Shown: one piece after another, positions 30,882 to 55,312 of the stretch
Layout: every line of letters starts with the position of its first letter
Position numbering within the stretch: position 1 is the first letter of the stretch
Assembly (NCBI GenBank): GCA_035946615.1
Contig: DASYZB010000132.1
Coordinates: 1 to 64,000 of the forward strand
DNA from: Verrucomicrobiia bacterium
GTDB lineage: Bacteria; Verrucomicrobiota; Verrucomicrobiia; Limisphaerales; UBA8199
DNA length: 64,000 nt
Reading direction: 5' to 3'
Notes under the pieces: generated by a model
What the model saw: only the letters and a program-made list of their open reading frames with translations
Databases searched by the model: none
What the model was told of the DNA's origin: nothing
Program-made: the position numbers and the translations under genes

Positions 30882-32723
30882 TTACGAAATTGCGTCAAGC
30901 GAGGCGGGTTCGCGGAATTGCAGCGCGGCCAGGCGCCGGTACACACCTTCCTCCATGGCTTGCAGTTCTTCGTGGGTGCCGGACTCGACCACCCGCCCAC
31001 CGGCGATCACGATAATGCGGTCCACATGCCGCACGGTGGCCAGCCGGTGGGCGATAATAAACGTGGTGCGCCCTTGCATCAGGGTCTCCAGCGCTTCCTG
31101 AATCAGGCGTTCGCTCTCTGAATCCAGCGAGCTGGTGGCTTCATCCAGAATGAGGATGGCCGGATTTTTCAAAATCGCGCGGGCTATGGCCACACGCTGA
31201 CGCTGCCCGCCCGAAAGCTTGATGCCGCGGTCGCCCACTAGTGTGGCATAACCTTCCGGAAAGCCCTGGATGAACTCATGCGCGTTGGCCTGTCGAGCCG
31301 CCCCTTCGATTTCCGCCATGCTCGAGCCCGGTTTTCCATAGGCGATGTTCTCCGCAATGCTTCCGCCGAACAGCAAGACCTCCTGCGGGACCATGGACAT
31401 TTGGCCCCGCAACTCGGTGAGCCGGTAATCGCGGGCATCCCTGCCATCCACCAACAACCGCCCGGCTGACGGATCATACAGCCGTAGCAGCAGCGAAATG
31501 AGGGTGGACTTTCCCGCCCCGCTCGGGCCCACCAGGGCGATTCTTTGCCCCGAAGCCGCTTCCAGGTGGATCGTCTGAAGCACTTCAACTCCGGGTCGCG
31601 AAGGATAGGTGAAGTGCACATTCTCGAACATCACGTCTCCGCGCAGCCGCGGCAGCCTCGGGGCTGGCCGGGGGCCAAGCAACGCTTCCACCTCGCCGGT
31701 TTCCCGCAGCAACTCCCGAACCCGCTGCGTGGCGCCGATGGCCTTTTGGAGCTGGCTGTAGAGTTCCGCGAATTGCCCCATCGCTCCTGCAATAAATGTC
31801 GTGTAAAGCCCGAAACGGGTGAGGTCGCCAAAAGTGATCCTTCCCTGCTGCAAAAGACGAGCCCCGGACCACAGCACCAGAACGATGAACCCGAACAAGG
31901 CGAGGACTATAAAGGCATTGAACGCCGCGCGCAGCCGGGCGCCGCGCAACGTGGCGGTCAGGAACCTTCCCAACCCGTCGTGGTAGCGATTGAGTTCATA
32001 ACCTTCATTGGAAAAGGCCTTCACATTCACGATGCCCTGCAACGTCTCCTCCACGATCGTCGCCGTATCAGCCAGCCGATCCTGCGCTTCCCGGTAAATC
32101 TTGCGCGTTTTGCGGCCAAACACCACCGCCACCACAATCACCAACGGCAGACTCGCGAGCATGATAGCGGTCAATTGCAGCGAAGTGACCGCAATGAGCG
32201 CAATGCCCCCCACGAGCAAGGTGGTTTGGCGCAGAAACTGCGGCACTACACTGATGAGCGTGTCCTCGATTTGAATCAGGTCGGCGGAAAGACGGCTGGC
32301 TAACTCCCCCACGCGGCGTTGGGCAAAAAAGGTCATCGGCAGCGAGATCAATCTCGCATAAGTCGCCCGGCGCAAATCGACCAGACTGCGCTGGCCGACC
32401 GTGGCAAAGGAAAGGGAATGGAAATAAGACAGGCCGGCTTGCAGTGCCAGGATGCCCATCAGCATCAGGGCCGTGCGGTCCGCGCGCGCCATGCCGCCGC
32501 CCCGGGACCCGTGCATGGCCGCATCGATGATGCTCCCCGCCAGGTAAGGAAAGGCCAGGCTCAACAGGCTGCCGATGAACATCGACACCAGGGCCGCCCC
32601 AAACCGAACCCGATACGGACGCAGATACTGGAACAGCTCCAATGCCTGCCGCAGCGATTCACGGTCCAGCTTGGCCTTCGGCAGTTCGACTCCGGCCTGG
32701 TCATTGCGTGAATAGCGCGCCAT
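30882..32723 (-). CDS. ABC exporter, MsbA-like (fused permease/ATPase)
   Basis: 613 residues. The first 330 form six membrane helices of the type I exporter fold; the remainder is an ATPase with Walker A G-P-S-G-A-G-K-S-T, signature L-S-G-G-Q-R-Q-R-V-A, Walker B I-L-I-L-D-E-A-T-S-S-L-D and the H-loop A-H-R-L-A-T-V. This half-transporter form is used for lipid A core flipping (MsbA) or other lipids and drugs. No other lipid A genes lie beside it, so the substrate is open. It is divergently oriented to the two-partner secretion locus. Confidence 0.88.
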   Translation of the reverse strand: MARYSRNDQAGVELPKAKLDRESLRQALELFQYLRPYRVRFGAALVSMFIGSLLSLAFPYLAGSIIDAAMHGSRGGGMARADRTALMLMGILALQAGLSYFHSLSFATVGQRSLVDLRRATYARLISLPMTFFAQRRVGELASRLSADLIQIEDTLISVVPQFLRQTTLLVGGIALIAVTSLQLTAIMLASLPLVIVVAVVFGRKTRKIYREAQDRLADTATIVEETLQGIVNVKAFSNEGYELNRYHDGLGRFLTATLRGARLRAAFNAFIVLALFGFIVLVLWSGARLLQQGRITFGDLTRFGLYTTFIAGAMGQFAELYSQLQKAIGATQRVRELLRETGEVEALLGPRPAPRLPRLRGDVMFENVHFTYPSRPGVEVLQTIHLEAASGQRIALVGPSGAGKSTLISLLLRLYDPSAGRLLVDGRDARDYRLTELRGQMSMVPQEVLLFGGSIAENIAYGKPGSSMAEIEGAARQANAHEFIQGFPEGYATLVGDRGIKLSGGQRQRVAIARAILKNPAILILDEATSSLDSESERLIQEALETLMQGRTTFIIAHRLATVRHVDRIIVIAGGRVVESGTHEELQAMEEGVYRRLAALQFREPASLDAIS

Positions 32724-32936: not shown

Positions 32937-35900
32937 ATGAGAATCAATGTTGCGGGGCTGTTGGCTTTTTGTTGCGCGTCGTTTATTCATCAGGCCCATG
33001 CCAACCCGCTTGGGGGCAGCGTGGTAGGGGGCAATGCTAATGCCACTATCAAGGGGCAGGGCACTTCACTGGTTACCATCAACCAGAACAAAGGCCAGGC
33101 CATTATCAATTGGCAGAGCTTTTCCATCAATGCAGGAGAGATGACCAAATTCATTCAGCCATCCGCAACAGCCGCCATCTTGAACCGGGTCATGACCCCC
33201 ACTCCCTCGTTGATTTATGGAAACCTCGAGGCCAATGGCAAGGTTTACCTGGTCAATCCAGCGGGTGTCTTTGTGGGGCCAAGCGGAGTGATAAACACCC
33301 GGAGCTTTCTGGCCTCAACTTTTGATATTGGCAATGATGCCTTCCGCTCAGCCGCTGCGCTGACCCTCTCTGGGTCTTCAACCGCCTCCGTCCGCAACGA
33401 GGGAACCATTCAGGCCTTGGGCGGGGATGTCTTCCTCATAGCCAATACAGTCGAAAATGCCGGCAAAGTACAGGCCTCGGGCACAGTCGGTTTAGCCGCA
33501 GGCTCAAAAATACTCCTGGCCCAATCGGGGGCTGAGCGGATTGTCGTGCAGGCAGGAAATCCAGCCCAGCATGGGACCGGCACCGGCGTGAACAACCAGG
33601 GGCAAATCCAGGCGGCAACAACCGAGATAAAAGCCGCCGGCGGCAATATTTATGCCCTGGCCATTAATAATGGCGGGGCAATTCGAGCCACAACCGCCAT
33701 CAATGAGGGCGGCAGGATTTATTTGCGCGCTTCAGGCGGCAATATTCAGAACTCCGGCGCCATCGATGCCAGTGGCGCCAACGGCAACGGCGGCGCCGTC
33801 ATCCTGGAAGGCGGCCACAATGCGACGGCCCCAGCCACTGTAGTCAGTTCGGGGACAATTGACGTCCAAGGCAACAGCTCTGGCGCAAAAGGCGGCATGG
33901 TCCAGGTGACAGGAGACCACGTCGGCCTCTTTGGCAATGGGCTCATTGATGCCAGTGGCCAGGGCGGAGGCGGCACAGTCTTATTGGGCGGCGATTATCA
34001 TGGACGCAATCCTGCCGTCCTGAATGCCGAGGCCACGGTGGTCGGAGCCAATGCCTCCATCCGTGCCGATGCCCTGACCCTTGGGAATGGCGGCAAGGTC
34101 GTCTTGTGGTCCGAGGACACTACCCGGTTCCAAGGCTCGATCTTCGCCCGAGGCGGGTCCCAAGGCGGCAATGGCGGCTTCGTCGAAACTTCAAGTGGCA
34201 ATTCTTTGGCCTTTAACGGCCTCGTGAATACCCTGGCGCCAGCCGGGCGCGGGGGCGAACTGCTGCTTGACCCGAAAAACATCGTTATCAACGCATCGGG
34301 TTCCGATGTCGTGGCGAATAACGAGACCTTCGCCCAGAACCCGACCGCTACCGCCAACTTGAGCGCAGCAAACTTAGTCACCGAGTTGGCCAATAATGCC
34401 TCCTTAACCCTGAAGGCTAACAATGACATTGCCATCGAGACGGACCTCAACTTCGCGTTGAACGCCGGCACGGCAGGGAAAAACTTCTCACTCGAGGCGG
34501 GACGCAACCTCATCTTTGCCCAAACTCCGGATTTCACCACACCGGCTAATAGCAGCGGGGCTGTTACGCTCACAATGAATGGTGGGGATTTTAGCGCAAC
34601 ATACAACGATGCGGCGGCCACACTAGCCAATCGCGATGCCGGTACTGCGCAGTTTTTCATGACACCCGGTTCGTCCATTCTGACCAGGGGCGGCGCGGCG
34701 AACATCACCGGCAGCACGTTATCGGGCGCAGCGGGCGACGCGACGCTGGGAACGCTAACAACCAGCGGTCCCGCCGATACCACGGCCACAGCCGGAGGTA
34801 ATCTTTCCATTAATACGGGAGCAGGCGGAGGCAACATTATCGCTGCCGGCGCATTGACCACTGCCGGGGCGGCGCTGACTTCGGGCAACGTAGCGGGAAA
34901 TAGCGGCGGCACCCTCAGCCTGATCGGTGGCACTCTTAATTTAGCAGCCGTGGACAGCTCCGGCAGCAGTGCGCGGGGTAGTGGAAACCACAACGGCGGC
35001 AGCGCCGGCTCTATTGCGCTGACGGCGAATAGTGCCACGCCATCAATCACTTTAAACGGCGACTTGAGTGCGAGCGGCGGCGTTGCGGTCGGCGGTACTG
35101 GGGTTGGCGGCGCCGGGGCCGCTATTACCCTCTCTGGACCAGTCATCCTTGCTCAGAACGTGACCGTGAACGCATTGCGCGGCACCGGTAACACCTTGTT
35201 GACGAGCGGCAAAGTATGGTTTCAGAGCACAGTCGATGGAGACTTGGCCGCTAATGACCGCACTTTAAAAGTGAACACCGGCGGCATCACTGAATTCGAT
35301 GGCGCCATTGGCGGCCTCCAGAGTCTGGGTAGTCTGACGACCGATGTGACCGGCGAAACCGGCGAGCAGACTCAAATCGGTGGCAATGTGACCTCCAGCG
35401 GCACTCAAACCTATAACGATGCGGTCGTTCAGTCTGCAGACTCCCACCTGACAGGCTCGGCCCTGGCGCTGGGGCCCAGTTGGGATGCGGCTAACCACAA
35501 TCTGCAACTGACCTTCAATAGCTCGGTCACTGTCCCAGCCGCTTTGGTCAATGTGAACAACTTCGCCTCCGACGGCGCCGGCGGCACCGTCATTAACGGG
35601 GATTTTACCACTGCAGGCAGTCAAACATACGGCTCTCCAGTGACTATTTCCGGTCCGGCAGGTGCTCGGACCCTCACCAGCACCGCTGTCTTGCCCGCCA
35701 ATGGAAAGATTTGGTTTCAAGGCACAGTCGATGCCCTGACCGCCGGAAGCCAGGGCCTGGTGGTGAAAACAGATGGCACGACCGAGTTTGACGCAGCAGT
35801 GGGAGCAACCAGTCTCGCGAGCCTCGACATCAAAGGCAATTCCATCGCTACGGCGGGCAATACAGACCTCAACACGCCCAGTATCGCAACTAGCGGAAGC

Positions 35901-38900
35901 CAAACCTTTGAAAACGCTGTATCACAATCCGCCGGCGCGCACCTGACCGGAACGACTCTGACCCTCGGGCCAACCTGGAACGGGGGCAACCAGAACCTCC
36001 AGTTGTCCTTTAGCAGCGCTGTGACTGTCCCAGCGGTTTTTGCCAACCTCAATAACTTCACTTCCGATGGCGTGGGCGGGACGCTGGTAAACGGGGATTT
36101 CGCTGTGGCCGGCAGCCAAACCTATGTTCATGCGGTAACAATCGGCGGCGCTGCCGGCGCCCGCACACTCAGCAGCACGGCAACCTTGCCCGCCAACGGC
36201 AAGATTTGGTTCCAGAGCACGGTCGATGCCGCGAGCGCGGGGGTGCAGGGCCTGTCCATCAAAACCGACGGAACGTCTGAGTTTGATGCCGCTGTGGGAA
36301 TCACTCCTTTGGCCAGCCTCGATGTGCGCGGCAACTCGGTCGCCAGCGCAGGCAATGCCGACTTGAACGCCCCGACAGTGACAACCAGCGGCGGCCAGAC
36401 CTATGAGAACCCCCTCACGCTAAGCCAGGACAGCGTCCTCAAAGACTCCGCCGGACAGAACATCATCTTCGACTCGACGTTGGACGGCAACCACCGACTC
36501 GAAGTGGACACGACCGGAAACGAAATCTTCAATGGTGTCGTCGGTGGCGTTACCCCGCTGATCAGCCTGACAACTGACGCCAGCGGCGGAGTGGGCGGGC
36601 AGGCTCAGTTCAATATGACCGCGCCGGGCGGTGCCAATCCTGCAGGCGTTAATGTGGGTTCGCTGGTCATCAACGACGTCGCGGCGATGAATGTCGCCGG
36701 AAGCACCGGCCTCAAGCCGAGTGTCGAATCCAGCAGCGGCCAAACTTATAAAGGCGCCGTGGTCTTGAGCGCCGGGACTGTGCTGCGTGATTCGGCAGGA
36801 CAAGACATCGTCTTTCAAACCACAGTAGATGGGAGTTTTGGTCTCGAGGTCGATACCACCGGCAATGAGGTATTCAATGGTGTGGTCGGCGGCGCAACGC
36901 CTTTGGCAAGTCTCACCACCGATGCTTCTGGCGGTACGGGCGGCCAGGCCCAGTTCAATATGGCAGCTCCGGGCGGGGCCAATCCTGCGGGCGTCAATGC
37001 GGCCGCCCTGACCATTGCAGACACGGCGGCTTTCCAGGTCTCCGGCAGCACCGCTGCCACCCCCACAGTTCAGTCCACCGCCGGCCAAACCTATAATGGC
37101 GCCGTCGTGTTAAATGCCTCAACCGTTCTTAAGGATGCCGGCGGTCAGAACATCTCGTTGACCTCAACCGTGGATGGAGCAAAAACGCTTGAAGTCGATA
37201 CCGGCGGCAACGTGGCTTTGGGCGTGTTAGGCGGAGGGACGCGGCTCACGGGCCTGAAAGTCACAGGGAACATCCTCACATTAAATGGCAACATTAATAC
37301 CGAAGATGCCGCCGTGGATTTTACAGGCATCACAGCGGTGAATTTGGTCAATAATGTAACCATCGATACGGATAGCATCCAGGATGGCGGCGCGGCGGGG
37401 TCGATCAGTTTTGGTCCTGCCACTGCTATTAATGGCAGCCACGCCCTTGTGCTGGATGCCAGCGGCCAGGGCAGCGATGGTTGGGGCAACATCTCCCTGG
37501 GTGTCATCGGGACGACCACACCTTTATTGAGCGGCTTAACCCTTAAAGGGGCAACCCTGAACTTGAACGGCGCCATAGCGATTAGCTCGACCGGTGTAAT
37601 TGATTTGGAATCGGTCAATAATATTGCAATCGGCGCAAACATTACGGCCGGCACGTTCGACGCCCATTCTGGTCTCACAGGTTTGGGCAACATCACCTTC
37701 GGTCCAGCCGTGGTTGTAAAAGCCGATACCCAATCCTATCAGGCTGGGGATGGCCATGGCGGCGGCGCCACATCCACCGCCGACCTGCTCAGCAATGGCC
37801 CTCTCTTCGAGAATACCGCCGGCCTGGCCGCGCCCGTCAGTTTCACCTATCAGCAGGATGCGGCGATTCTCGCCGGGAATCTCCCGCCGTCAGCCCAATT
37901 CATCGGCGGCCAGCCCTTGGCTTACGTTATCCGTTCCGACGACGGCGCCGTCCAATTACCGGCGCTGACTCTTCCGGGGAGCTTGCAGGTTATCTCCGCA
38001 GGTGACATCACCCAGTTGGGCGCTCTGAGCGTGATGAGCGGAGGCAGTTCCTTCAGCATCGAGGACGTAACCGCCAATATACTATTAGGCGGCCAGCCCA
38101 ATCATTTCGCCAACCAACCGCTCAGCGTCGGCGCAATCAACGGTGGCTCTGTGCAGGACTTGAACTTGCGTAACGTGGACCCCGGCGCATCAGTATTGGC
38201 TTTGCCCGCAAACCTGCGAAACCTGACATTGTATTTTGACACCGCACCAGTAGCACTGCCGGCGGTCACCTTGAGTGGGGCCTTGAGCGTGACGGCTGGT
38301 GGCACGATTAGCCAGAGCGGAGCGCTCAACGTGATGGCCTTTCCCAGCACCTTCACCATCAATGGCGCTGCCGCCAGCGTCCTCCTGGGCAGCAGCCCCA
38401 ACAATTTTGGTAATCAGCCCATCACCATCAGCGCCATCAACGGCGGCTCGGTGCAGGATGTGGCGCTGTGGAATGTCTTCGCCACTCCTACCGCCCTCTA
38501 CCCGGCACTCCCCGCGGCCCTGCGCAACCTCACTCTGCGATTCGACAATGCCGGAGTGAACCTGCCCGTTCTGACGTTGAGCGGAAATCTGAATGTGAAA
38601 GCCGGCGGGTTGGTGGATTTCACCGGCGCGGCAGCTAGTGTTATTGGCGGGACGATGGCCCTTTCGACCACCGCCGGTGGGATCAGCCAGAGCGGTACCG
38701 GCCCTTTGACTGTTACCGGGACCAGCACACTGGCAGCGGGTCCAGCAAATAACATCGCTCTCAATCAAAACAACAACTTTAGCTCGGTCGGCATTACCAG
38801 CGGCCATAACGTCGTCCTCAATGACATCAATGGCCTGATTGTAGGTGGCACGATTAGCGGCAACCTCAATGCAACCGCAGGAGGTGTTCTGGGATTCAAT

Positions 38901-41900
38901 AACTTGAATATAAGTGGCAACCTGAATGCCACGGCCAATGGATTGATTAATGATAACGGAGCCGTTCACGTGGCAGGTCTATCAAGCCTGGGGGCCGGCC
39001 CGCTCAACGATATTCAACTCACTCATGCAGACGATTTCGGCGGAGCCGTAACCATCGTGAATGGCCGGAATGTGGTGCTAACCGACGTGAACGGGTTGAC
39101 CGTAGGGGGGGCGGTCAGTGGTAACTTGGGTATCAGCGCAGGGGGCGCCACTATCTTGAATCCCCTCAGCGTGGGCGGCTTTCTCAATGCAAACGCCACC
39201 GGCCCCATCAGCGATAACGGCGCGGTGACGGTCGCCGGCACCACGGCCTTGGCCGCGGGCCCCGCAAATGACATCACGTTGAATCATGCCGACTCCTTCC
39301 AGGGCGCGGTGACCATTGTGAGCGCCGGGAACGTCAACCTGAATGATATTATAGCGCTGACGCTCGGCGGGACGATCAGCGGTGATCTGGCCACCACCGC
39401 CGGAGGAGCAACGGCATTTGGCACGCTGAGCGTCGGGGGCAACCTCAGCACCGTGGCAAACGGTCCCATAACGCAGACCGGTCCGATCATCGCTAATGGA
39501 CTGGGCAAGACCGCCACTTTTACTGCCGGTCTGGCCAACGACATTACGCTGGCCAATCCTGCCAATGATTTCACTTCCGTAGGGATCGTTTCCGCTAATA
39601 ACGTGGCGTTGTCCGACCTAAATGGCATCGACCTTGCCGCGTCCACCCTGGCTGGCAATTTATCGGTCGCTGCTAACGGCCCGATTACCCAGGGCGGGGC
39701 CATTCTTGCGAATGGAACTGCCAAGGTCGCCACGTTCGCAGCGGGAGCAGCCAACGATATTACGCTCGGAAATTCCGCCAACGATTTTTCAGCCGTTTCA
39801 ATTACCTCAGGCAACAATGTGACTTTGGCGGATGCCAACGCCCTGATCCTGGCGGCCTCGACGGTGAGCGGGAATTTTAATGTGTCTGCCAATGGACCCA
39901 TTACGCAGAGCGGGGTTATTTTGGCCAATGGGCTTGGCAAAGTGGCCACCTTCGCCTCCGGCCCTCTCAACGACATCCTGCTGGGCAATCCCGCCAATGA
40001 TTTTACAACCGTTGCTATAGGGTCGGCTAACAACGTCACCCTGGCGGATGCCAACGCGCTGAACCTGGGCCCCGCAAATATAAGCGGCAATTTCAGTGTG
40101 ACGGCTAACGGCCCGATGACTCAGAGCGGGAGCATCATCGCCAACGGCTCGGGTAAGACCGCAACATTTGCCGCTGGAGCAGCCAATGACATCAACCTGG
40201 CCGACCCCGCTAATGATTTTTCCACGGTATCCATAGGGTCCGGCAATAACGTCACGTTGGCGGATGCCAACGCGCTGAACCTGGGCGCCTCGGCCGTCAG
40301 CGGCAATTTTAACGTCACCGCCAGCGGGCCCATCACACAAACCGGGATCATTATAGCCAACGGGCTGGGTAAGATCGCCACTTTTGCTGCCGGACCTGGC
40401 AATGACGTTACCCTGGCGAATCCCGCCAATGATTTTACAACGGTATCAATTGTCTCGGGCGCCAATGTCCTGCTGGCCGATGCCAATGCCCTGGATTTGG
40501 GGAACTCGACCGCAAGCGGTAACTTGAGCGTAGCTGCCGCCGGACCCCTAACGCAGAGCGGCGCGCTGAATGTGACCGGTTTGGGCTCATTCACCTCGAC
40601 TGCCAGCGGGGCGGCCGGGAACATCACTTTGAATAACGCCGCCAATAATTTCGGGTCAATCACTTTGGTGAGCCCGAATGGGGCGGCGGCGTCAGTCAAT
40701 GAAGCAAGTGCTTCAGCCTTGGATACGATTGCAGTCAACAACGGAGCCCTGACGGTCATTTCCGCTGGAGCCATCAGCCAGGTTTCTGGCAAGACCATCA
40801 CCGTAGGGCAGTTGGCTTCCTTCACTTCCTCAGGCAGCGGGGCCAGTGGCGATATCACCCTGAACAATGCCGGTAACAATTTTGGTTCTGTGGGTTTGAA
40901 CACCGCCAATGGGGCGGCGGCATCGCTGACTGAGGCGAGCGACACCGCCTTGGATACCGTGGCAGTGAACAACGGCGCCCTGGCGGTCAACTCGGCCGGC
41001 GCTATCAGCCAGGTGGCTGGCAAGAGCATCACGGCGGGACAATTGGCTTCGTTTACCTCGGCAGGCAGCGGGGCCAGCGGAGACATCACCCTCAATAACC
41101 CGGCAAATAATTTCGGTTCCGTGAGCTTAAACTCGGCTAATGGCGCTGCGGCATCCGTGACTGAGGCCAGCGCTACGGCCTTGGACGCCGTTTCGGTGAA
41201 CAATGGGGCGCTAAGCGTTAACTCGGCAGGGGCCATCAGCCAGGTGGCCGGCAGGAGCGTCACGGTCGGCCAGTTGGCTTCCTTCACTTCAACTGGCAGC
41301 GGGGCTGCTGGCGATATCACGTTGGACAATGCCGGGAACAATTTTGGCTCGCTCAGTTTGAACTCCGCCAATGGCTCTGCCGCATCCGCCACCGAGGCGA
41401 GCGATACCGCCCTCGATACTGTGGCCGTAAACAATGGCGCGCTGACGGTCAGTTCAGCCGGCGCCATCAGCCAGGTGGCTGGCAAGAACATTACGGTAGG
41501 GCAGTTGGCCTCCTTTAGTTCCACCGGGAGCGGGGCTAGCGGAGACATCACCCTGAATAACACCGGGAACAACTTCGGTTCCGTTAGCTTGAACTCGGCT
41601 AATGGTTCCGCGGCATCCGTCACTGAAGCGAGCGACACCGCCCTGGACACAGTGGCGGTAAACAATGGCGCGCTGGCCGTCAATTCCGCCGGGGCAATCA
41701 GCCAAGTGGCTGGTAAAAACATCACCGTCGCGCAGTTGGCCTCATTTACATCGACCGGCAGCGGGGCCAGTGGCGACATCACCCTGAACAATGCCGGTAA
41801 CAATTTTGGTTCTGTGGGTTTGAACACCGTCAATGGCGCGGCGGCATCGCTGACCGAGGCAAGCGACACTGCCTTGGATACGGTGGCGGTGAACAATGGC

Positions 41901-44900
41901 GCGCTCACGGTCAATTCGGCCGGAGCAATCAGCCAGGTCGCTGGAAAGAGCGTCACCGTGGGCCAGTTGGCTGCCTTTTCTTCAACGGGCAGCGGCGCCA
42001 GTGGCGATATCACGCTCAATAACGCCGGCAATAACTTTGGTTCTGTGGGTCTGAACACCGGTAATGGCTCTGCCGCATCGGTTACCGAGGCGAGCGACAC
42101 GGCCCTGGATACGGTTGCGGTGAACAATGGCGCCCTGACAGTCAATTCGGCTGGGGCCATCAGCCAGGTGGCTGGGAAGAGCATCACGGCCGGCCAGTTG
42201 GCCTCATTTACATCGACTGGCAGCGGCGCCAGTGGCGACATCACGCTCGACAACGCCGGGAACAATTTTGGCTCGGTGGCTCTGAGCACAGCCAATGGCG
42301 CGGCGGCATCTGTCACTGAAGCGAGCGACACCGCCCTGGACACCGTTTCAGTGAATAATGGCGCGCTGATGGTCGATTCGGCCGGAGCCATCAGCCAAGT
42401 GGCTGGCAAGAGCATTGGAGTCGGACAGTTGGCCTCTTTTACCTCCACCGGCAGCGGCGCCAGTGGCGACATCACTTTGAATAATGCAGGAAATAACTTC
42501 GGCTCAGTGGGTTTGAACACCGCCAATGGTTCAGCGGCATCAGTCACTGAAGCGAGCGACACCGCCCTGGACACCGTGTCAATGAATAATGGCGCGCTGA
42601 CAATCAATTCCGCCGGGGCCATCAGCCAGGTTTCCGGTAAGAGCATCACGGTCGGCCAGTTGGCTTCCTTTACCTCCACCGGCAGCGGCGCCAGTGGCAA
42701 CATCACGCTGAACAATGCGGGGAATAACTTCGGTTCCGTCGCTCTGAACAGCGCTAATGGCGCCGCGGCATCAGTTACTGAAGCGAGCGACACCGGCCTG
42801 GACACTGTTTCAGTGAATAATGGCGCGCTGACAATCAATTCCGCCGGGGCCATCAGCCAGGTGTCTGGCAAGAGCATCGCCGTCGGCCAGTTGGCTTCGT
42901 TTACCTCCACCGGCAGCGGCGCCAGCGGAGATATCACACTCGACAATGTCGGGAACAATTTCGGCTCTGTGAGTTTGAACACCGCCAATGGTTCAGCGGC
43001 ATCAGTCACTGAGGCCAGCGACACCGCCCTGGACACCGTTTCAGTGAACAATGGAGCGCTAACGGTCAATTCTGCCGGAGCCATTAGCCAAGTGGCCGGC
43101 AAGAGCATCGCCGTCGGCCAGTTGGCTTCGTTTACCTCCACCGGCAGCGGCGCCAGAGGAGACATCACACTGGACAATGCCGGAAATAACTTCGGCTCAG
43201 TGAGTTTGAACACCGCCAATGGTTCGGCGGCATCAGTCACTGAGGCCAGCGACACCGCCCTGGACGCTGTGGTGGTCAACAATGGCGCGCTGACGGTCAA
43301 TTCGGCTGGAGCAATCAGCCAGGTTTCTGGCAAGAGCATCTCGGTAGGGCAATTGGCTTCGTTTACCTCAACCGGCAGCGGCGCCAGCGGCGACATCACA
43401 CTGGATAATGCCGGGAATAATTTCGGTTCGGTGGCTCTGAACTCCGCCAATGGTTCAGCGGCTTCGGTCACTGAGGCCAGCGACACCGCCCTGGATGCCG
43501 TGGCGGTCAACAATGGCGCGCTGACGGTTAACTCAGCCGGAACGATCAGCCAGGCGGCTGGCAAGAGCATTACAGTCGGCCAATTGGCTTCCTTTACCTC
43601 CACCGGCAGCGGCGCTAGCGGCGACATCACGCTGAACAACGCCGGGAATAATTTCGGGTCCGTGGCTCTGAACACAGCCAATGGCCTGGCAGCATCAATC
43701 ACCGAGGCGAGCGACACTGCCCTGGATACTGTCTCTGTGAACAATGGCGCACTGACGATCAATTCGGCCGGAGCTATCAGCCAGGTGGCCGGCAAGACCA
43801 TGACGGTCGGTCAATTGGCCTCATTTATTTCGACCGGCATTGGCGCCAGCGGCGATATCACACTCGACAATGCCGGAAATAATTTCGGCTCAGTGAGTTT
43901 GAACACAGCCAATGGCTCAGCGGCATCACTGACTGAGGCGAGCGACACGGTCCTCGACATCGTCGCGGTGAACAACGGCGCCCTGACACTCAATTCCGCC
44001 GGGGCTATCAGCCAGGTTCCTGGCAAGAGCATCTCGGTAGGGCAGTTGGCTTCCTTTACCTCCACCGGCAGCGGCGCCAGCGGCGACATCACTCTTAACA
44101 ATGCAGGCAATAATTTTGGGTCCCTTGGTTTGATTACCGCCAATGGCACAGCGGCGGCAGTCACCCAGGCGGGCGATACCGCACTCGATACGGTGGCCGT
44201 CAACAATGGCGCGCTCACGGTCAATTCGGCCGGCGCTATAAGCCAGGTCTCGGGCAAGAACATCACGGTCGGACAATTGGCTTCGTTTACCTCCACCGGC
44301 AGCGGCGCCGGCGGAGACATCACACTGAACAATGCCGGGAACTACTTTGGCTCGCTCAGCTTGAACACGGCCAATGGCGCAGCCGCGTCTGTCGCTGCGG
44401 CAAGCGCCGCGGTGCTGGATACAGTCGCTGTGAATAATGGGGCGCTCTCGATCAACTCGGCGGCCGCAATTTCCCAGGTCCCCGGCAGGAGCATCACCGT
44501 TGGGCAACTGGCCTCCTTTATTTCAGCCGGCAGCGGCGCCAATGGCGACATCACACTGAACAATGCCGGGAACTACTTTGGGTCCTTGAGCCTAAACTCC
44601 GTCAATGGCGCCGCCGCATCCGTCACTGAAGCCGGGGATGCCCTGTTCGATACTGTCTCTGTCAATAGCGGTTCTCTGGCCCTGGTTTCTCCCGGCGCGA
44701 TTAGCCAGGTCCCTGGAAAAGCTATCACCGTGGGGACATCCACCACCCTGAATGCCGGCGGCAACATCACCTTGGATGGCCCGGGCAATTATTTCGGTGG
44801 CTTGGTCACCGTCGCCAATGGCCAGGCAGTCACTCTCGTGGACATCAGCACCTTGACGGTGGGTGGGGCTTCGCGAAGCCTCGAAGCCCACGCCAATGGC

Positions 44901-46328
44901 GGTGACCTCGTCTTTGCCGGATACAACGTCGTCAATGATTTGATGGGAACTGCCAGCGGGAACATTTCCCAAACCGCCCCGGTCTCGGTTGGGGGCAGCG
45001 CGAATCTCGATGCTGGCGGCAACATCACTTTGAATAACCCCGCCAATACTTTCAGCCGCGTCGCGCTCTCGAGCACCAACGGGACTCAGGTCCAGGTCTC
45101 CCAAAGCACCGATATGCACTTGGATGATGTCCTGGCCCCAATCGCCACCGTCATGCTCAACTCGGCCGCGGGCATCTTCCAGGAACCCGGCGCCAGTCTG
45201 GTTGCCAGGGAATTGGCCCTTAACGGCGTCAGCCAGGTATCCCTTGTCGGCACCAATAACCACGTGCAGAATCTCGCCGGAATCCTCACCGGCCCCGGCG
45301 CCTTCCAGTTTACCGACCAGGATGCCCTCACCGTGACCACCGTCGGCGGGGTGCCGGGTATCACCGCGTTGAGCCCAGGCAGCCTGGTCACCCTCAACGC
45401 CAATAACATCGGCATCACGGCCATCGGCATCACCGCCCCCCGCAACCAGGTCACCCTCCAGCCCATCTCCACCTCAGGCACCCTCTTTATCGGTGGTCCT
45501 TATATCGCCGGGCCCAACCCGCTTGAATACGCCGGGCTCAACAACGTCAAGGCCGGCATACTCCAGATCGGCAACAAAACCACTTTCAACGGCAACATTG
45601 TCGTCAATCAGACCATCACCTTGACCAATAGCTCGGGCCTCCCATTCCAGCCTACCCCGGTCGCCTCCTCCACAAAGGATTCTACCACCCTCTCCTTGCA
45701 GACGATGCGCGGGACCATTACAAACGCGTTCGCCGGCGGGGCCTGGGCTGTCGTGAATGTGCCCCGCTTGAGCCTCGTCGCTTCCAATGTCGCCTTCCTG
45801 GGAAATCTGGCTAATTCGAGCGACGTCAGTTTCCTGGCATGGCAGACCGGAAAGCCTATCACATTCGTCGATGCCAACACCCTCGACCTGCTCTGGGCCG
45901 ACCCCGCTAAGATCGGTGTCAATACCCCGCCCGTTTCCCCCTACCCGGCTAATCCCCAGGCCTTTTATACTGGAATAGACGGGGTGTTCGGAGCCAACCC
46001 GCCTACGGGCAATGACATCCTTTTCAACGGCGGCGGTGTGCCGGCGCAGCAATTCGCCAACTCCCTCGCTCCATTTAATTCCATCGAGCTGCCGACCAGC
46101 CGTTTGACTCTCTCCGCCGTCACCACCGCTTTCGACCTTAAAGCATACGGAGCAAAAATCGATTCCATTCTCGGTCCCGGCTCGATTTGGATGAGCTTCG
46201 CCGCCATCCCGTTCACCACGACCACACCTGTGGAACAGATGCTCAAACCCGAGGTCACTTCCAAATGGATTCGTGGCGTCACCGGCATCAGCGGCTCCAC
46301 CGCCGGCCCCCAGCAATCTTCATATTAG
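32937..46328 (+). CDS. giant two-partner secretion adhesin (TpsA, FHA-type)
   Basis: 4463 residues from ATG 32937, after GAGGTGAAGG. Signal peptide at 1-22 (L-L-A-F-C-C-A-S-F-I-H-Q-A-H-A). The TPS domain follows, with V-T-I-N-Q-N, W-Q-S-F-S-I-N and N-P-A-G-V-F-V-G-P-S-G-V-I-N-T, the landmark of the filamentous-haemagglutinin export signal. L-L-D-P-K-N-I-V-I near residue 443 is also a family mark. A long beta-helical shaft contains several repeat sets: two copies of about 160 residues near 820-1150, five 72-residue units at 2175-2534, and seventeen 77-residue units at 2612-3920. The C-terminal 300 residues are non-repetitive. It is exported through the TpsB pore encoded 67 bp downstream and probably mediates attachment. 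Confidence 0.9.
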   Translation: MRINVAGLLAFCCASFIHQAHANPLGGSVVGGNANATIKGQGTSLVTINQNKGQAIINWQSFSINAGEMTKFIQPSATAAILNRVMTPTPSLIYGNLEANGKVYLVNPAGVFVGPSGVINTRSFLASTFDIGNDAFRSAAALTLSGSSTASVRNEGTIQALGGDVFLIANTVENAGKVQASGTVGLAAGSKILLAQSGAERIVVQAGNPAQHGTGTGVNNQGQIQAATTEIKAAGGNIYALAINNGGAIRATTAINEGGRIYLRASGGNIQNSGAIDASGANGNGGAVILEGGHNATAPATVVSSGTIDVQGNSSGAKGGMVQVTGDHVGLFGNGLIDASGQGGGGTVLLGGDYHGRNPAVLNAEATVVGANASIRADALTLGNGGKVVLWSEDTTRFQGSIFARGGSQGGNGGFVETSSGNSLAFNGLVNTLAPAGRGGELLLDPKNIVINASGSDVVANNETFAQNPTATANLSAANLVTELANNASLTLKANNDIAIETDLNFALNAGTAGKNFSLEAGRNLIFAQTPDFTTPANSSGAVTLTMNGGDFSATYNDAAATLANRDAGTAQFFMTPGSSILTRGGAANITGSTLSGAAGDATLGTLTTSGPADTTATAGGNLSINTGAGGGNIIAAGALTTAGAALTSGNVAGNSGGTLSLIGGTLNLAAVDSSGSSARGSGNHNGGSAGSIALTANSATPSITLNGDLSASGGVAVGGTGVGGAGAAITLSGPVILAQNVTVNALRGTGNTLLTSGKVWFQSTVDGDLAANDRTLKVNTGGITEFDGAIGGLQSLGSLTTDVTGETGEQTQIGGNVTSSGTQTYNDAVVQSADSHLTGSALALGPSWDAANHNLQLTFNSSVTVPAALVNVNNFASDGAGGTVINGDFTTAGSQTYGSPVTISGPAGARTLTSTAVLPANGKIWFQGTVDALTAGSQGLVVKTDGTTEFDAAVGATSLASLDIKGNSIATAGNTDLNTPSIATSGSQTFENAVSQSAGAHLTGTTLTLGPTWNGGNQNLQLSFSSAVTVPAVFANLNNFTSDGVGGTLVNGDFAVAGSQTYVHAVTIGGAAGARTLSSTATLPANGKIWFQSTVDAASAGVQGLSIKTDGTSEFDAAVGITPLASLDVRGNSVASAGNADLNAPTVTTSGGQTYENPLTLSQDSVLKDSAGQNIIFDSTLDGNHRLEVDTTGNEIFNGVVGGVTPLISLTTDASGGVGGQAQFNMTAPGGANPAGVNVGSLVINDVAAMNVAGSTGLKPSVESSSGQTYKGAVVLSAGTVLRDSAGQDIVFQTTVDGSFGLEVDTTGNEVFNGVVGGATPLASLTTDASGGTGGQAQFNMAAPGGANPAGVNAAALTIADTAAFQVSGSTAATPTVQSTAGQTYNGAVVLNASTVLKDAGGQNISLTSTVDGAKTLEVDTGGNVALGVLGGGTRLTGLKVTGNILTLNGNINTEDAAVDFTGITAVNLVNNVTIDTDSIQDGGAAGSISFGPATAINGSHALVLDASGQGSDGWGNISLGVIGTTTPLLSGLTLKGATLNLNGAIAISSTGVIDLESVNNIAIGANITAGTFDAHSGLTGLGNITFGPAVVVKADTQSYQAGDGHGGGATSTADLLSNGPLFENTAGLAAPVSFTYQQDAAILAGNLPPSAQFIGGQPLAYVIRSDDGAVQLPALTLPGSLQVISAGDITQLGALSVMSGGSSFSIEDVTANILLGGQPNHFANQPLSVGAINGGSVQDLNLRNVDPGASVLALPANLRNLTLYFDTAPVALPAVTLSGALSVTAGGTISQSGALNVMAFPSTFTINGAAASVLLGSSPNNFGNQPITISAINGGSVQDVALWNVFATPTALYPALPAALRNLTLRFDNAGVNLPVLTLSGNLNVKAGGLVDFTGAAASVIGGTMALSTTAGGISQSGTGPLTVTGTSTLAAGPANNIALNQNNNFSSVGITSGHNVVLNDINGLIVGGTISGNLNATAGGVLGFNNLNISGNLNATANGLINDNGAVHVAGLSSLGAGPLNDIQLTHADDFGGAVTIVNGRNVVLTDVNGLTVGGAVSGNLGISAGGATILNPLSVGGFLNANATGPISDNGAVTVAGTTALAAGPANDITLNHADSFQGAVTIVSAGNVNLNDIIALTLGGTISGDLATTAGGATAFGTLSVGGNLSTVANGPITQTGPIIANGLGKTATFTAGLANDITLANPANDFTSVGIVSANNVALSDLNGIDLAASTLAGNLSVAANGPITQGGAILANGTAKVATFAAGAANDITLGNSANDFSAVSITSGNNVTLADANALILAASTVSGNFNVSANGPITQSGVILANGLGKVATFASGPLNDILLGNPANDFTTVAIGSANNVTLADANALNLGPANISGNFSVTANGPMTQSGSIIANGSGKTATFAAGAANDINLADPANDFSTVSIGSGNNVTLADANALNLGASAVSGNFNVTASGPITQTGIIIANGLGKIATFAAGPGNDVTLANPANDFTTVSIVSGANVLLADANALDLGNSTASGNLSVAAAGPLTQSGALNVTGLGSFTSTASGAAGNITLNNAANNFGSITLVSPNGAAASVNEASASALDTIAVNNGALTVISAGAISQVSGKTITVGQLASFTSSGSGASGDITLNNAGNNFGSVGLNTANGAAASLTEASDTALDTVAVNNGALAVNSAGAISQVAGKSITAGQLASFTSAGSGASGDITLNNPANNFGSVSLNSANGAAASVTEASATALDAVSVNNGALSVNSAGAISQVAGRSVTVGQLASFTSTGSGAAGDITLDNAGNNFGSLSLNSANGSAASATEASDTALDTVAVNNGALTVSSAGAISQVAGKNITVGQLASFSSTGSGASGDITLNNTGNNFGSVSLNSANGSAASVTEASDTALDTVAVNNGALAVNSAGAISQVAGKNITVAQLASFTSTGSGASGDITLNNAGNNFGSVGLNTVNGAAASLTEASDTALDTVAVNNGALTVNSAGAISQVAGKSVTVGQLAAFSSTGSGASGDITLNNAGNNFGSVGLNTGNGSAASVTEASDTALDTVAVNNGALTVNSAGAISQVAGKSITAGQLASFTSTGSGASGDITLDNAGNNFGSVALSTANGAAASVTEASDTALDTVSVNNGALMVDSAGAISQVAGKSIGVGQLASFTSTGSGASGDITLNNAGNNFGSVGLNTANGSAASVTEASDTALDTVSMNNGALTINSAGAISQVSGKSITVGQLASFTSTGSGASGNITLNNAGNNFGSVALNSANGAAASVTEASDTGLDTVSVNNGALTINSAGAISQVSGKSIAVGQLASFTSTGSGASGDITLDNVGNNFGSVSLNTANGSAASVTEASDTALDTVSVNNGALTVNSAGAISQVAGKSIAVGQLASFTSTGSGARGDITLDNAGNNFGSVSLNTANGSAASVTEASDTALDAVVVNNGALTVNSAGAISQVSGKSISVGQLASFTSTGSGASGDITLDNAGNNFGSVALNSANGSAASVTEASDTALDAVAVNNGALTVNSAGTISQAAGKSITVGQLASFTSTGSGASGDITLNNAGNNFGSVALNTANGLAASITEASDTALDTVSVNNGALTINSAGAISQVAGKTMTVGQLASFISTGIGASGDITLDNAGNNFGSVSLNTANGSAASLTEASDTVLDIVAVNNGALTLNSAGAISQVPGKSISVGQLASFTSTGSGASGDITLNNAGNNFGSLGLITANGTAAAVTQAGDTALDTVAVNNGALTVNSAGAISQVSGKNITVGQLASFTSTGSGAGGDITLNNAGNYFGSLSLNTANGAAASVAAASAAVLDTVAVNNGALSINSAAAISQVPGRSITVGQLASFISAGSGANGDITLNNAGNYFGSLSLNSVNGAAASVTEAGDALFDTVSVNSGSLALVSPGAISQVPGKAITVGTSTTLNAGGNITLDGPGNYFGGLVTVANGQAVTLVDISTLTVGGASRSLEAHANGGDLVFAGYNVVNDLMGTASGNISQTAPVSVGGSANLDAGGNITLNNPANTFSRVALSSTNGTQVQVSQSTDMHLDDVLAPIATVMLNSAAGIFQEPGASLVARELALNGVSQVSLVGTNNHVQNLAGILTGPGAFQFTDQDALTVTTVGGVPGITALSPGSLVTLNANNIGITAIGITAPRNQVTLQPISTSGTLFIGGPYIAGPNPLEYAGLNNVKAGILQIGNKTTFNGNIVVNQTITLTNSSGLPFQPTPVASSTKDSTTLSLQTMRGTITNAFAGGAWAVVNVPRLSLVASNVAFLGNLANSSDVSFLAWQTGKPITFVDANTLDLLWADPAKIGVNTPPVSPYPANPQAFYTGIDGVFGANPPTGNDILFNGGGVPAQQFANSLAPFNSIELPTSRLTLSAVTTAFDLKAYGAKIDSILGPGSIWMSFAAIPFTTTTPVEQMLKPEVTSKWIRGVTGISGSTAGPQQSSY
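39459..40538 (+). repeat. five tandem 216-bp units in tpsA
   Basis: Five in-frame copies of 72 codons with no length change, each starting N/S-G-P-I/M-T-Q and containing A-N-G-x-x-K, A-N-D-F, N-N-V-T-L-A-D-A-N-A and S-G-N. A partial sixth copy starts at 40539 and merges into the next repeat set. Confidence 0.9.
40770..44696 (+). repeat. seventeen tandem 231-bp units in tpsA
   Basis: 17 in-frame copies of 77 codons, 3927 bp in total, with no insertions or deletions: copy 1 starts at GCC 40770 and the next sequence of this type (copy 18, partial) starts exactly at 44697. Each unit has A-I-S-Q-V, V-G-Q-L-A-S-F, G-D-I-T-L-N-N-A-G-N-N-F-G-S, A-A-S-V-T-E-A-S-D-T-A-L-D and V-N-N-G-A-L. A related partial unit precedes copy 1. 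Confidence 0.95.
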
Positions 46329-46395: not shown

Positions 46396-48183
46396 ATGAA
46401 ATTGCAAAAAATCCTGAAAGTGTGGTCGGGGCTGGCGCTTCTCTTGCTATTGAGCGCCTTGTTCTGCCCGGTGGGCATGCAAGCACAGGGATTGGGAGAA
46501 GAGCGATTGCCCCAGCGCTCTCCCAAGGTCCCCAAAAAGCCGCCCACCCCCGCCCCTTCGGTCCAGAGCCCCACCCCGCAAACCAATCCGGAAGATGACA
46601 ACGTCCTCATCCCGCGCTTGACGGGAATCGTCATCGTTAAGTCACGCGACGAAATCAAGGAGGAGGGCGTCTCGGGCGTGACCGGCATCAAGGTCGTCAA
46701 TATCCCCTTATTAAGCGGACCGGATTTTCAGAAGCTCGGGTATTGGTATCTCAACCAGAGCGTCTCGATCAACGATATCCGCAGCCTCGAAAACGACATT
46801 ATCCTTTATTGCCGCGCCAAAAACAGGCCATTGGTGGACATCATCCTCCCGCCGCAAAACCTCAGCACCGGCGTCATTCAGCTTTGGTTCCTCGAAGGCA
46901 AGGTCGGCAAAATCACCGTCAATAATCCCGGGCACAAATGGTTTTCCGACCAGTTTATCACCCGCCAAATCCGTTTGCGCCCAGGCGACGTCGTCGATAT
47001 GCAGAAGCTCACCGACGATTTGGATTGGGTAAACCGCAACCCCTTCCGCCAGGTCAACACCGTCTTCAAAGCCGGCGACGACCTGGGCAAGTCCGATATT
47101 GACCTGCAGGTCGAAGACCGGATTCCGCTGCGCGCCTACTTCGGCTACGAAAACACCGGCACCGAGTTCACCGGACAGGACCGCTTGCTGGCAGGGTTCA
47201 ATTGGGGCAACGTCTTCGGCTTGGACCAGCAGTTGAATTACCAATACACCACCGATGTGGACTTCCGGGACATCAGCGCCCACTCCGCCAGTTACCTCAT
47301 CCCGCTGCCCTGGCGCCACAACCTCGCCATCATGGGCGCCTATGCCGATGCAACCGCTGAGTTTCCCAATACCTCGGCGCTTTCCAAGGGCAACAGCTAC
47401 CAGGCCAGCTTGCGCTATTCGATCCCGCAACGCGTGGGCAAAAATTATATCCAGGAAATCACTGGCGGCTTTGATTTCAAGAGCACCGATAACAATCTCG
47501 AATTCGGCGGCCAAACCGCCCTCAGCACCACCCGCATCCAGGTCGATCAATTCGAGTTGGGCTACAGCGGCTTGCTGCTCGACCGCGCCGGCCAGACCTC
47601 CCTCGGCCTCGAGGGCTATTACAGCCCGGGCGGCTTAACCAGCCAGAATAACGACGCGACCTTCGACCAGTTGCGCCCCGATTCCAAGGCCCATTACCTG
47701 TATGGCCGTCTGACCGCAGAGCGCCTCACCCGCTTGCCCGCTGATTTTAGCTGGGTCCTCCACTTCTTCGGCCAGTATTCCAGCCAGCGGCTCACCCCGA
47801 GTGAAGAAATCGGCATCGGCGGCTTCGGCACCGTGCGCGGCTATTTCGAACGCTTCGTCAACGCCGACAACGGCTGGATCGTCAATAATGAACTCCGCAC
47901 GCCCACCTTTCCCGTGCTGAAGCGATTCGGGTGGTTTCCCTACGATGACCGCTTGCAATTCCTGGTTTTCTTCGATTACGGCACCGTGCAGATCGAAGAC
48001 TTCAATATCACCGACGCCGGGGCTGGGCTGATGAAAAACACCAGCCTGGCCTCCTATGGCGCCGGCCTGCGCTATGACCTGCGCCAGAACCTCTCCGTTC
48101 GCTTCGACTACGGCATCGAACTCATGAACAAGGAGCAAGGCAGAGACTCCGGCGGCCACATCGGCGTCCTGCTAAGCTTTTGA
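46396..48183 (+). CDS. two-partner secretion pore TpsB (ShlB/FhaC family)
   Basis: Outer-membrane beta-barrel that translocates the TpsA partner. 595 residues with a signal peptide (L-A-L-L-L-L-L-S-A-L-F) and a proline-rich linker. A POTRA_2 domain spans about 90-175 (S-L-E-N-D-I-I-L-Y-C-R-A-K-N-R-P). It is followed by the second POTRA region and a barrel of about 16 strands with alternating hydrophobic residues. The L6 motif V-R-G-Y lies at 480-483 in G-G-F-G-T-V-R-G-Y and the C-terminal residue is F, the barrel assembly signal. It lies 67 bp downstream of tpsA on the same strand. Confidence 0.92.
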   Translation: MKLQKILKVWSGLALLLLLSALFCPVGMQAQGLGEERLPQRSPKVPKKPPTPAPSVQSPTPQTNPEDDNVLIPRLTGIVIVKSRDEIKEEGVSGVTGIKVVNIPLLSGPDFQKLGYWYLNQSVSINDIRSLENDIILYCRAKNRPLVDIILPPQNLSTGVIQLWFLEGKVGKITVNNPGHKWFSDQFITRQIRLRPGDVVDMQKLTDDLDWVNRNPFRQVNTVFKAGDDLGKSDIDLQVEDRIPLRAYFGYENTGTEFTGQDRLLAGFNWGNVFGLDQQLNYQYTTDVDFRDISAHSASYLIPLPWRHNLAIMGAYADATAEFPNTSALSKGNSYQASLRYSIPQRVGKNYIQEITGGFDFKSTDNNLEFGGQTALSTTRIQVDQFELGYSGLLLDRAGQTSLGLEGYYSPGGLTSQNNDATFDQLRPDSKAHYLYGRLTAERLTRLPADFSWVLHFFGQYSSQRLTPSEEIGIGGFGTVRGYFERFVNADNGWIVNNELRTPTFPVLKRFGWFPYDDRLQFLVFFDYGTVQIEDFNITDAGAGLMKNTSLASYGAGLRYDLRQNLSVRFDYGIELMNKEQGRDSGGHIGVLLSF

Positions 48184-48247: not shown

Positions 48248-48544
48248 ATGGAAATCCGAAATGTCGTGACCGGAGACTCTTGCGAGGTGCTCGTCTTCGG
48301 GCGCGTCGATGGCACCGGGGCTAATCAACTGGAGGTCGAACTGCTCAAGCTGATCCGCTCGGGTCCGAAAAGCAACCTGAGCAGCGCAACTTTTCTTTGT
48401 TCGGCCGGCCTGCGGGTGCTCCTCCAGTAATGGCGGCAAATGAAAAACTCTCAGCGGGTGCTGCTGGCGACACGGCCTTCGCCGGAAGTCGATGCGGTGC
48501 TGGCTACCTCGGGTTTTCGCGAGGCACTGGTCGAAAAGGTCTGA
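48248..48544 (+). pseudogene. STAS-domain anti-sigma antagonist, broken by a stop codon
   Basis: The first frame (48248-48430) codes 60 residues ending L-C-S-A-G-L-R-V-L-L-Q, then TAA at 48428-48430. The same frame continues W-R-Q-M-K-N-S-Q-R-V-L-L-A-T-R-P, which is the expected second half of a STAS domain, to TGA 48542-48544. Near residue 46 a few residues of the central strand also seem to be missing. STAS proteins bind anti-sigma factors or phosphorelay partners; this one is almost certainly non-functional. It overlaps the 3' end of the convergent HisKA gene by 41 bp. Confidence 0.75.
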
Positions 48545-49517
48545 AAGTGTCCTTCAGGCCCTGGTGCGTTGCCTTTTCCTTGTCCCTGAGCCGCCTCTTT
48601 TCCAGGCAGGCGCCAATCCGGGCGCGCAGGAATACGGGACTGAAAGGCTTAGCCAGGTAATCTTCGGCGCCCATTTCTATAGAGCGGGCGACGCCATTTT
48701 CGTCATCCAGCGCAGAAAGCATCAGGATGGGGATGTCGCGCAGTGCCAGGTCGGACTTGAATTTTGCAAGCACTTGAAACCCATCCAGGCCCGGCATGAC
48801 CATATCCAGCAAAATGAGATCGAACTGTTGCCTGCGGGCAAGCGCCAGGGCCTGCACGCCGTTGCCTATGGCCGAAACGGTGTAGCCGCTGCGCCGCAAC
48901 CGCCGGGCCAGCATCTCGCGGCTGCTTTCATCGTCATCCACCACCAGAATCGCCCCTTCGTCCTTAAACAAAGGCCGGCCAGTTTTGGGTTCCGGCACTT
49001 TAAAACTGAAGCCAAGATTCAAAGACAGAGGTTGACCGCGCGAGCCGGCAGGCTGGAGGGTGTCAGGCGCCGCCGCCAGGACCGGCTCGATTAAATAGGC
49101 CTCCATCAAGGACAACCAGTCGCTGGCGGCATCTCGTATTTTCTTGAGGTCGGCAACAGCCGCCTGGATGGCCGCGTCCTCGGTTTGTTCGATGAGCAAG
49201 TCCGTGTAGCCGATGATGTGGTTCACCGGTGTGCGCAGTTCATGGTAGAGCTGGTGCAAGTCCCGGTGCTGGAGAAACTGTTCCTCGTCAAAGTACCTCG
49301 CAATTAGTATTTGCAGCTCGCGTCCTCCGGCGTGAATTCTGCGCAAATCCTCCAAAGCCTGTTCCGAGAGCTGCGCCTCTTCGAGCAGCAATTCGCAATA
49401 GCCCAGAATATGATTGATAGGCGTGCGCAGCTCGTGCCGCATGCGGGTCCAGCTTTCCCACCGCCGCCTCGGTTGAAGCTGAGCCTGAAGCAGAGGCCGG
49501 CTGCTTAATTCCCTCAA
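48504..49517 (-). CDS. HisKA-HisKA-REC signalling protein without ATPase domain
   Basis: 337 residues from TTG 49517. Two histidine kinase dimerisation segments, R-H-E-L-R-T-P-I-N-H (H28) and Y-H-E-L-R-T-P-V-N-H (H92), are followed by a complete receiver domain (about 187-310; acidic pocket V-V-D-D-D, phospho-acceptor D238 in L-L-D-M, K290 in L-A-K-P-F). No HATPase_c domain is present, so it cannot autophosphorylate by itself. ATG 49530, overlapping the upstream receiver's stop codon (ATGA), begins a more natural N-terminus (M-S-L-P-V-E-G-I-K-Q-P) in a frame one base off, so a frameshift at about 49450-49500 probably separates it from the body. Confidence 0.7.
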   Translation of the reverse strand: MRELSSRPLLQAQLQPRRRWESWTRMRHELRTPINHILGYCELLLEEAQLSEQALEDLRRIHAGGRELQILIARYFDEEQFLQHRDLHQLYHELRTPVNHIIGYTDLLIEQTEDAAIQAAVADLKKIRDAASDWLSLMEAYLIEPVLAAAPDTLQPAGSRGQPLSLNLGFSFKVPEPKTGRPLFKDEGAILVVDDDESSREMLARRLRRSGYTVSAIGNGVQALALARRQQFDLILLDMVMPGLDGFQVLAKFKSDLALRDIPILMLSALDDENGVARSIEMGAEDYLAKPFSPVFLRARIGACLEKRRLRDKEKATHQGLKDTFRPFRPVPRENPR

Positions 49518-53857: not shown

Positions 53858-54586
53858 TCAATGGCTGTGCGGCACTGAGGCGGCGTGTTCCCAGCAGTGC
53901 AGGACCTGCTCGGCTATCTCGTCCACACCCATCCCATGTTTGACCTGTGCAAAGATAATCGGTCCATCGCCGCGCATGGCATGGGCGTCGCGGCGCATGA
54001 TTTCCAGGTCGGCGCCGACGGCCACAGCGAGATCGGTTTTGTTAATCACCAGAAGGTCGGATTGAGTAATGCCGGGGCCGCCTTTGCGGGGTATTTTGTC
54101 GCCGCCAGCCACATCGATGACGTAGATGGTGAAATCAGCTAATTCGCGGCTGAAATGCGCGGCGAGGTTGTCACCTCCGGATTCGATCAGCAGGAGCTGG
54201 GTGTTGAAACGTTGGTGAAGGTCTTCCAAGGCGAGCAAATTGGCAGAGGTATCCTCACGGATAGCCGCATGGGGACAACCGCCTGTCTCGACCGCCCGGA
54301 TGCGGTCGGGTTCGAGGGCCTGGTGGCGCACGAGGAACTCGCCATCCTCTTTAGTGAAGATGTCATTTGTGACAGCCGCCATCCGAAGTTGATGGCGCAG
54401 TTTCAGACACAATGCCAGCATGAGGGCGGTTTTGCCGCTGCCGACCGGGCCGCCCACGCCGACGGTAAAGGCGCGGCGGCTGAAATCGCGGGCAAGTGGC
54501 TTAGGGCGCTGGTCGAAGTAGCCTGGGTATTCGAGGTGTTCGTGAGTATGGCCCTCGGGCCCGTGTTGGTGATGTTCCAAGTTCAT
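53858..54586 (-). CDS. ureG: urease accessory GTPase UreG
   Basis: UreG is the GTPase that drives nickel insertion into urease. 242 residues with [12 protein letters not shown] (Walker A) near residue 45, [21 protein letters not shown], and I-E-S-G-G-D-N-L, and the guanine motif N-K-T-D. The first 35 residues are an extra histidine-rich extension (H-H-Q-H, H-T-H-E-H), and the C-terminus ends H-S-H. Since no ureE is present, this may serve as the nickel store. It is the last gene of the urea operon. Confidence 0.95.
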
Positions 54587-54588
54587 GC

Positions 54589-55269: not shown

Positions 55270-55312
55270 ACATCCGAAGATTGAGAAGAACAAGCCATTA
55301 TACCAAGATTCT

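Follow-up and report, generated by a model that had tools for sequence, protein, structure and literature searches.

An old, protein-constrained tandem array as the probable youngest stalk segment of a predicted two-partner-secretion adhesin in a Verrucomicrobiia bacterium

Introduction

Do exact-length tandem repeats in a bacterial surface protein record recent amplification and continuing change in copy number, or long-standing selection on the protein that they encode? The repeat arrays of surface proteins are commonly taken to be recent and variable in length. The window analysed here, a 64,000-nucleotide stretch of a Verrucomicrobiia contig (GCA_035946615.1, DASYZB010000132.1), contains such an array, which a first-pass annotation had read as highly similar DNA units prone to copy-number change, their constant length implying either recent amplification or strong in-frame selection. 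We asked which of these histories the copies retain, how they compare with related arrays and what fold they are predicted to adopt.

Results

The array lies in a predicted two-partner secretion gene pair

The host gene encodes a TpsA-type exoprotein on the forward strand (32937-46328; ATG start, 4463 codons). Upstream of its ATG (32937) is a GAGGTGAAGG stretch that, judged by eye, resembles a ribosome-binding site; an N-terminal signal sequence was also read by eye, and all 5 cysteines of the open frame fall before or within it. A TPS secretion domain occupies 33030-33767 (+) (PF05860, 98.4 bits, over cut-off; TIGR01901 adhes_NPXG, 70.1 bits), and the solved relatives of the N-terminus among PDB sequences are EtpA, HMW1 and HxuA, with EtpA the best (E 4.8e-49). 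Downstream, 46396-48183 (+) encodes a TpsB outer-membrane transporter (ShlB PF03865, E 2.8e-33; POTRA_2 PF08479, 24.2 bits at a cut-off of 24) whose PDB relatives are FhaC and CdiB. Two features of a TpsA exoprotein, a TPS domain behind a signal sequence and a cognate TpsB encoded nearby, are present; judged by their families and gene order, the two genes form a putative two-partner secretion pair, with secretion and adhesion as the predicted functions.

The middle of the protein is made up of repeats of DUF5649 (PF18886), which part of PMC8286594 lists as a stalk domain. The Pfam model scores 701 bits on the whole protein, with 30 stretches over its cut-off, and these 30 repeats delimit a stalk region at 37938-45062 (+) that includes the array. 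The 77-residue array units score about 35-41 bits, compared with 45-63 bits for older 72-residue units of the same protein. The part of the gene 3′ of the array (44697-46328, +) contains two DUF5649 stretches, and in a general Pfam scan its 543 C-terminal residues matched no other family, with no CdiA-type toxin domain among the matches.

Several features surround the pair. An ABC-transporter gene on the opposite strand (30882-32723) starts 213 bp upstream of the TpsA gene; right behind TpsB, a 200-codon open frame (48492-49094) matches nothing in Pfam or NCBIfam; and further downstream (53858-57028) lie genes for a CobW/HypB/UreG-type GTPase, UreF and the urease alpha subunit. The same genome encodes a second TPS-domain protein (G000:C105:119321-120397; L002, L004), in an open frame of 1433 codons.

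Seventeen units of exact length and moderate similarity

Repeat finding and frame reading place 17 tandem units of 231 bp (77 codons) at 40770-44696 (+). Tandem Repeats Finder returned a period of 231, 16.9 copies and 0% indels at 40716-44629, and in the register that begins at 40770 all 17 units are open in the TpsA frame, the last base being 44696; the count, exact length and absence of indels initially described for this array are thereby confirmed. Identity at an offset of 231 is 0.71-0.88 within the array versus 0.25-0.37 beyond it. A degenerate partial copy adjoins each end, at 40566-40769 (+) 5′ of unit 1 (unit-profile positions 10-77) and at 44697-44852 (+) 3′ of unit 17 (positions 1-58). 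Across the whole 5.6 Mb genome the unit profile gave 19 matches, the 17 full and these 2 degenerate partial copies, all of them within the TpsA gene and none outside it.

The similarity of the copies as DNA is moderate rather than high, as had first been supposed. Over all 136 pairs, DNA identity between units is 66-90% (mean 78%) and protein identity is 68-94%. The closest pair, units 10 and 11, reaches 90% DNA identity and shares an uninterrupted run of 59 bases. As this 59-nt stretch is the longest exact repeat within the array and no 61-mer recurs, collapse or inflation of copies during assembly is unlikely. An antisense open frame of 1226 codons (40121-43801, minus) crosses most of the array; the three antisense frames contain 3, 31 and 110 stops across the 17 units, and the long frame is probably a by-product of a stop-poor frame arising from unit length and GC-rich third positions.

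Self-comparison of TpsA revealed at least five tandem layers. Besides the 77-codon array there are four older ones, all on the forward strand, with periods of 115 codons (36345-37262, about 2.7 copies), 100 codons (37956-38501, about 1.8 copies), 87 codons (38769-39491, about 2.8 copies) and 72 codons (39378-40646, about 5.9 copies, of which 5 compared units average 0.63 in DNA identity). Identity within the 77-codon layer is 0.82 for protein, 0.78 for DNA and 0.56 for third positions, versus 0.51-0.63, 0.55-0.65 and 0.30-0.44, respectively, in the other four. Because its copies are the most alike by all three measures, the 77-codon layer is probably the youngest in the protein.

Silent sites argue against recent amplification

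Differences between array units are concentrated at third codon positions (1393, 715 and 4757 at positions 1, 2 and 3; 4757 of 6865 at the third). Median dS is 1.11, dN 0.08 and dN/dS 0.075, with dS defined for 134 of the 136 pairs by the NG86 method, which is imprecise near dS 1. Where two units encode the same residue they use the same codon in 55% of 8668 codon pairs, versus 37-39% expected by random draw, a range that reflects the codon table used. As a yardstick for age we measured how far the adjacent ABC-transporter gene has diverged from its counterpart in each of three other genera of the family, obtaining dS of 0.99, 1.08 and 0.87, same-residue codon identity of 0.56, 0.54 and 0.58, and dN/dS of 0.05, 0.08 and 0.10. 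UreC, compared with a further genus, is more diverged than the ABC-transporter gene (dS 2.1, codon identity 0.44).

Silent divergence between array units is thus about that of the ABC-transporter gene between genera of the family, and protein-level selection on the units is about as strong as on that gene. It follows that the amplification was not recent by this yardstick, which consists of one gene in three comparisons and to which local mutation rates may not transfer exactly. Of the two histories proposed in the first-pass annotation, recent amplification is not supported by the silent sites, whereas strong in-frame selection gains support from the dN/dS of about 0.075 between copies. Neighbouring copies are also highly diverged, which is one half of the outcome that the annotation itself had named as counting against its reading. 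Exact unit length need not mean recency; silent sites give a different age.

The strength of this constraint stands out. In the other arrays that we compared, dN/dS is roughly 0.12-0.6, taken from medians of which some represent one to three pairs; at 0.075, the present array is unusually constrained among them. For repeats of the same protein in one proteome, a figure legend of PMC5120217 gives a median dN/dS of 0.52.

Instead of drifting in the ordinary way, synonymous sites might have been scrambled by selection against DNA repetition, making the array resistant to slippage and recombination. The low share of codons common by descent, at 55% over a random 37-39%, is in keeping with such a force, but silent divergence equals that of a single-copy neighbouring gene between genera, which makes an extra force unneeded, and survivorship, in which arrays that stay alike collapse, predicts the same pattern. 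We therefore regard selection against repetition as improbable and ordinary silent divergence as the better account.

Neighbouring units have probably exchanged sequence

The units are not equally related to one another. Similarity is higher between neighbours than between units far apart, both over units 1-16 (Mantel r 0.37, p 0.0004) and within units 3-14 alone (r 0.39, p 0.0034), and units at the centre of the array are more alike than those at its ends. In a site-compatibility test with windows of 3, 8 and 15 sites, 6, 8 and 21 of 1000 shuffles were as low for all 17 units, and 4, 11 and 82 of 1000 were as low for 16 units. This mosaic signal and the neighbour effect together reveal some old exchange between array copies.

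A simpler history, a single burst without later exchange that would leave a pure star, was rejected. For units 1-16, with unit 17 left out, identity correlates with unit distance at -0.41 (as low in 0 of 1000 column shuffles), and the spread and maximum of identity lie beyond the null (0 of 1000 shuffles); within units 3-14 alone, however, the spread of identity looks binomial. The duplications cannot be ordered because the unit tree is nearly unresolved, with 1 of 14 inner branches starred and 11 open.

The same mosaic signal, in both the 17-unit and the 16-unit tests, and the same neighbour effect could be cited for continuing gene conversion, rather than selection on each copy, as the process that keeps the protein copies alike. 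Conversion, however, copies silent and replacement sites equally, whereas in this array silent sites are mostly randomised and residues are kept. Gene conversion is a possible contributor but is insufficient alone for the contrast between silent and replacement sites, and we consider it unlikely to be what maintains the protein copies; selection on the protein is the reading that we carry forward.

Related proteins show homogenisation without a net change in unit number

DUF5649 matches occur in 3 of 13 genomes of the window's family, the source genome counted; across the order the figure is 15 of 320, with 11 over the cut-off. When 293 genomes of the order were scanned with the 77-residue unit profile, 3 gave matches, namely the source and two others with a single weak match each; the units form a lineage-specific DUF5649 subtype, well matched in the source genome alone among those 293. 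In named genomes the profile found two distant loci, L014 and L015, whose array units are 102 and 68 codons long; scans of viral sequences and of plasmids gave no match. Homologous giant proteins have other periods as well (68, 73 and 77, among others, in genome G061, 70 in G098 and 69 in G159), and a TpsB gene follows the TpsA gene in L014 and G061. Beside the conserved ABC transporter, a TpsA ortholog is absent in three other genera (L096, L097 and L098), which reflects either gain in the source genome or loss in the three relatives.

A comparison between two sister species of another genus, G061 and G098, bears on copy-number change. Over 2038 aligned codons their TpsA proteins are 75% identical with a dS of 1.08, and because internal gaps do not exceed 3 residues, the two have the same unit number over the aligned part, about 2040 shared residues, the G098 contig ending before the C-terminal part. 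G061 units 3-5 are nevertheless 85-92% identical to one another in DNA versus 66-72% to their positional counterparts, and two neighbouring unit pairs in G098 are 87-89% identical (2 of 5 neighbour comparisons, the three left out being out of register at identity 0.35-0.37). Middle units in this pair of species have thus been homogenised without net change of number over the compared part. The unit length is 68 residues in G061 (L037/L038) but 70 for the final units of G098 (L076), a pattern that small indels spreading from copy to copy would produce.

These observations touch on a further alternative, in which the array was recently amplified and actively changes copy number as a length switch of the kind seen in Periscope Proteins. 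Its units are tandem, exact in length and in frame within a surface protein, the greater likeness of central and of neighbouring copies is as expected of unequal exchange, and the middle units of the G061 and G098 proteins are homogenised. Yet no pair of array units exceeds 90% DNA identity, silent sites stand at genus-level divergence and the longest exact repeat is 59 nt, whereas Periscope Proteins require highly identical repeats, as described in parts of PMC8201768 and PMC9704523. We give a length switch little credence. Proneness to copy-number change, as first attributed to the array, likewise finds no support in copies whose longest uninterrupted identity is 59 bases or in homologous G061 and G098 proteins with equal unit numbers over their shared part.

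Array units are predicted to form a beta solenoid

Three units were modelled as an all-beta solenoid with high confidence (pLDDT 93.7, pTM 0.90) from an alignment of 31 rows that combined the 77-residue units, older units of the same protein and L015 units; the model from 77-residue units alone was poor (pLDDT 46). Foldseek found no PDB match to the three-unit model at E ≤ 0.001 (best 0.07), and the array region had no meaningful match among PDB sequences. When the 97 best Foldseek chains were aligned structurally, the best was the EtpA secretion domain (Z 13.1, rmsd 3.8, 210 aligned), followed by the HMW1 secretion domain (Z 12.5, rmsd 3.5, 206 aligned), with HxuA at Z 11.6 and 11.4. Unrelated solenoids reach Z 10-12, so the EtpA and HMW1 values indicate fold type, not close kinship.

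The part of PMC11463764 that describes the 228-residue EtpA repeat gives 9 strands per side, which corresponds to about 25.3 residues per rung. By analogy, each 77-residue unit would make up about three EtpA-like rungs, and the array, scaled from about 25 nm for EtpA residues 66-1534, would span about 22 nm.

Discussion

We consider it probable, at roughly 0.8, that the array is an old, tandemly duplicated and protein-constrained segment, the youngest of the stalk, in a two-partner-secretion adhesin. The TPS domain would direct TpsA to the TpsB pore, whose gene comes next, and once exported the polypeptide would form a long beta-helix, extended by about three rungs with every unit. The units would have arisen by old tandem duplication, at roughly the depth of genus splits in the family as gauged from one neighbouring gene; they would then have exchanged some sequence between neighbours and diverged silently while selection held the protein nearly constant. 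Purifying selection would account for the exact unit length because an indel would shift the rungs of the beta-helix.

Copy-number change needs stretches of perfect homology, most of which silent divergence has now erased, so the length of the array is probably fairly stable, with little present-day change in copy number. With equal faces on all 17 units, the array may bind one partner repeatedly, be it a glycan, a matrix polymer or another copy of the protein itself, as others have demonstrated for the EtpA repeats. More tentatively, and with less than even odds, the stalk may be locked in length, silent divergence having removed the homology for copy-number change while selection kept 17 near-identical binding faces. 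Were that true, near-identical protein repeats would have been kept for genus-level time without homogenisation of their DNA, the opposite of a Periscope Protein. The array is in any case a counter-example to the presumed recency of such arrays, and offers a test case for selection that keeps many equal beta-helix units and for when arrays stop changing length; the G061 and G098 pair adds homogenisation alongside an unchanged unit number, within the compared part.

Among known systems, CdrA of Pseudomonas aeruginosa is a two-partner-secreted, TpsA-type biofilm-matrix adhesin, and we liken it to the array protein by description, not by sequence. Variation in CdrA repeat number is mentioned in part of PMC8201768. 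Periscope Proteins resemble the array protein in being surface proteins of bacteria with a rod-like stalk of tandem repeats. According to PMC8201768 and PMC9704523, what defines them is highly identical tandem repeats together with variation in length, and high DNA identity is the proposed cause of length change. The array differs on both counts, its DNA identity averaging 78% and its protein being without known length variation; in addition, units of a continuous beta-helix may not fold individually.

A close parallel in architecture is EtpA (PDB 8vba, 8cpk), a TpsA adhesin from enterotoxigenic E. coli, in which a TPS domain likewise precedes a series of imperfect tandem repeats. The enzyme EtpC glycosylates EtpA, whereas Pfam scans of selected neighbours found no such glycosyltransferase beside the array's TpsA gene, and a genome search for the HMW1C-type glycosyltransferase PF18254 gave no match, as in the control genomes. 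EtpA repeats form a three-sided beta-helix, to which we liken the array units by their predicted solenoid. In the parts of PMC11463764 that deal with the repeats, efficient binding to blood group A depends on the EtpA repeat region, which comprises three 228-residue repeats and a partial fourth, compared with seventeen 77-residue units in the array described here.
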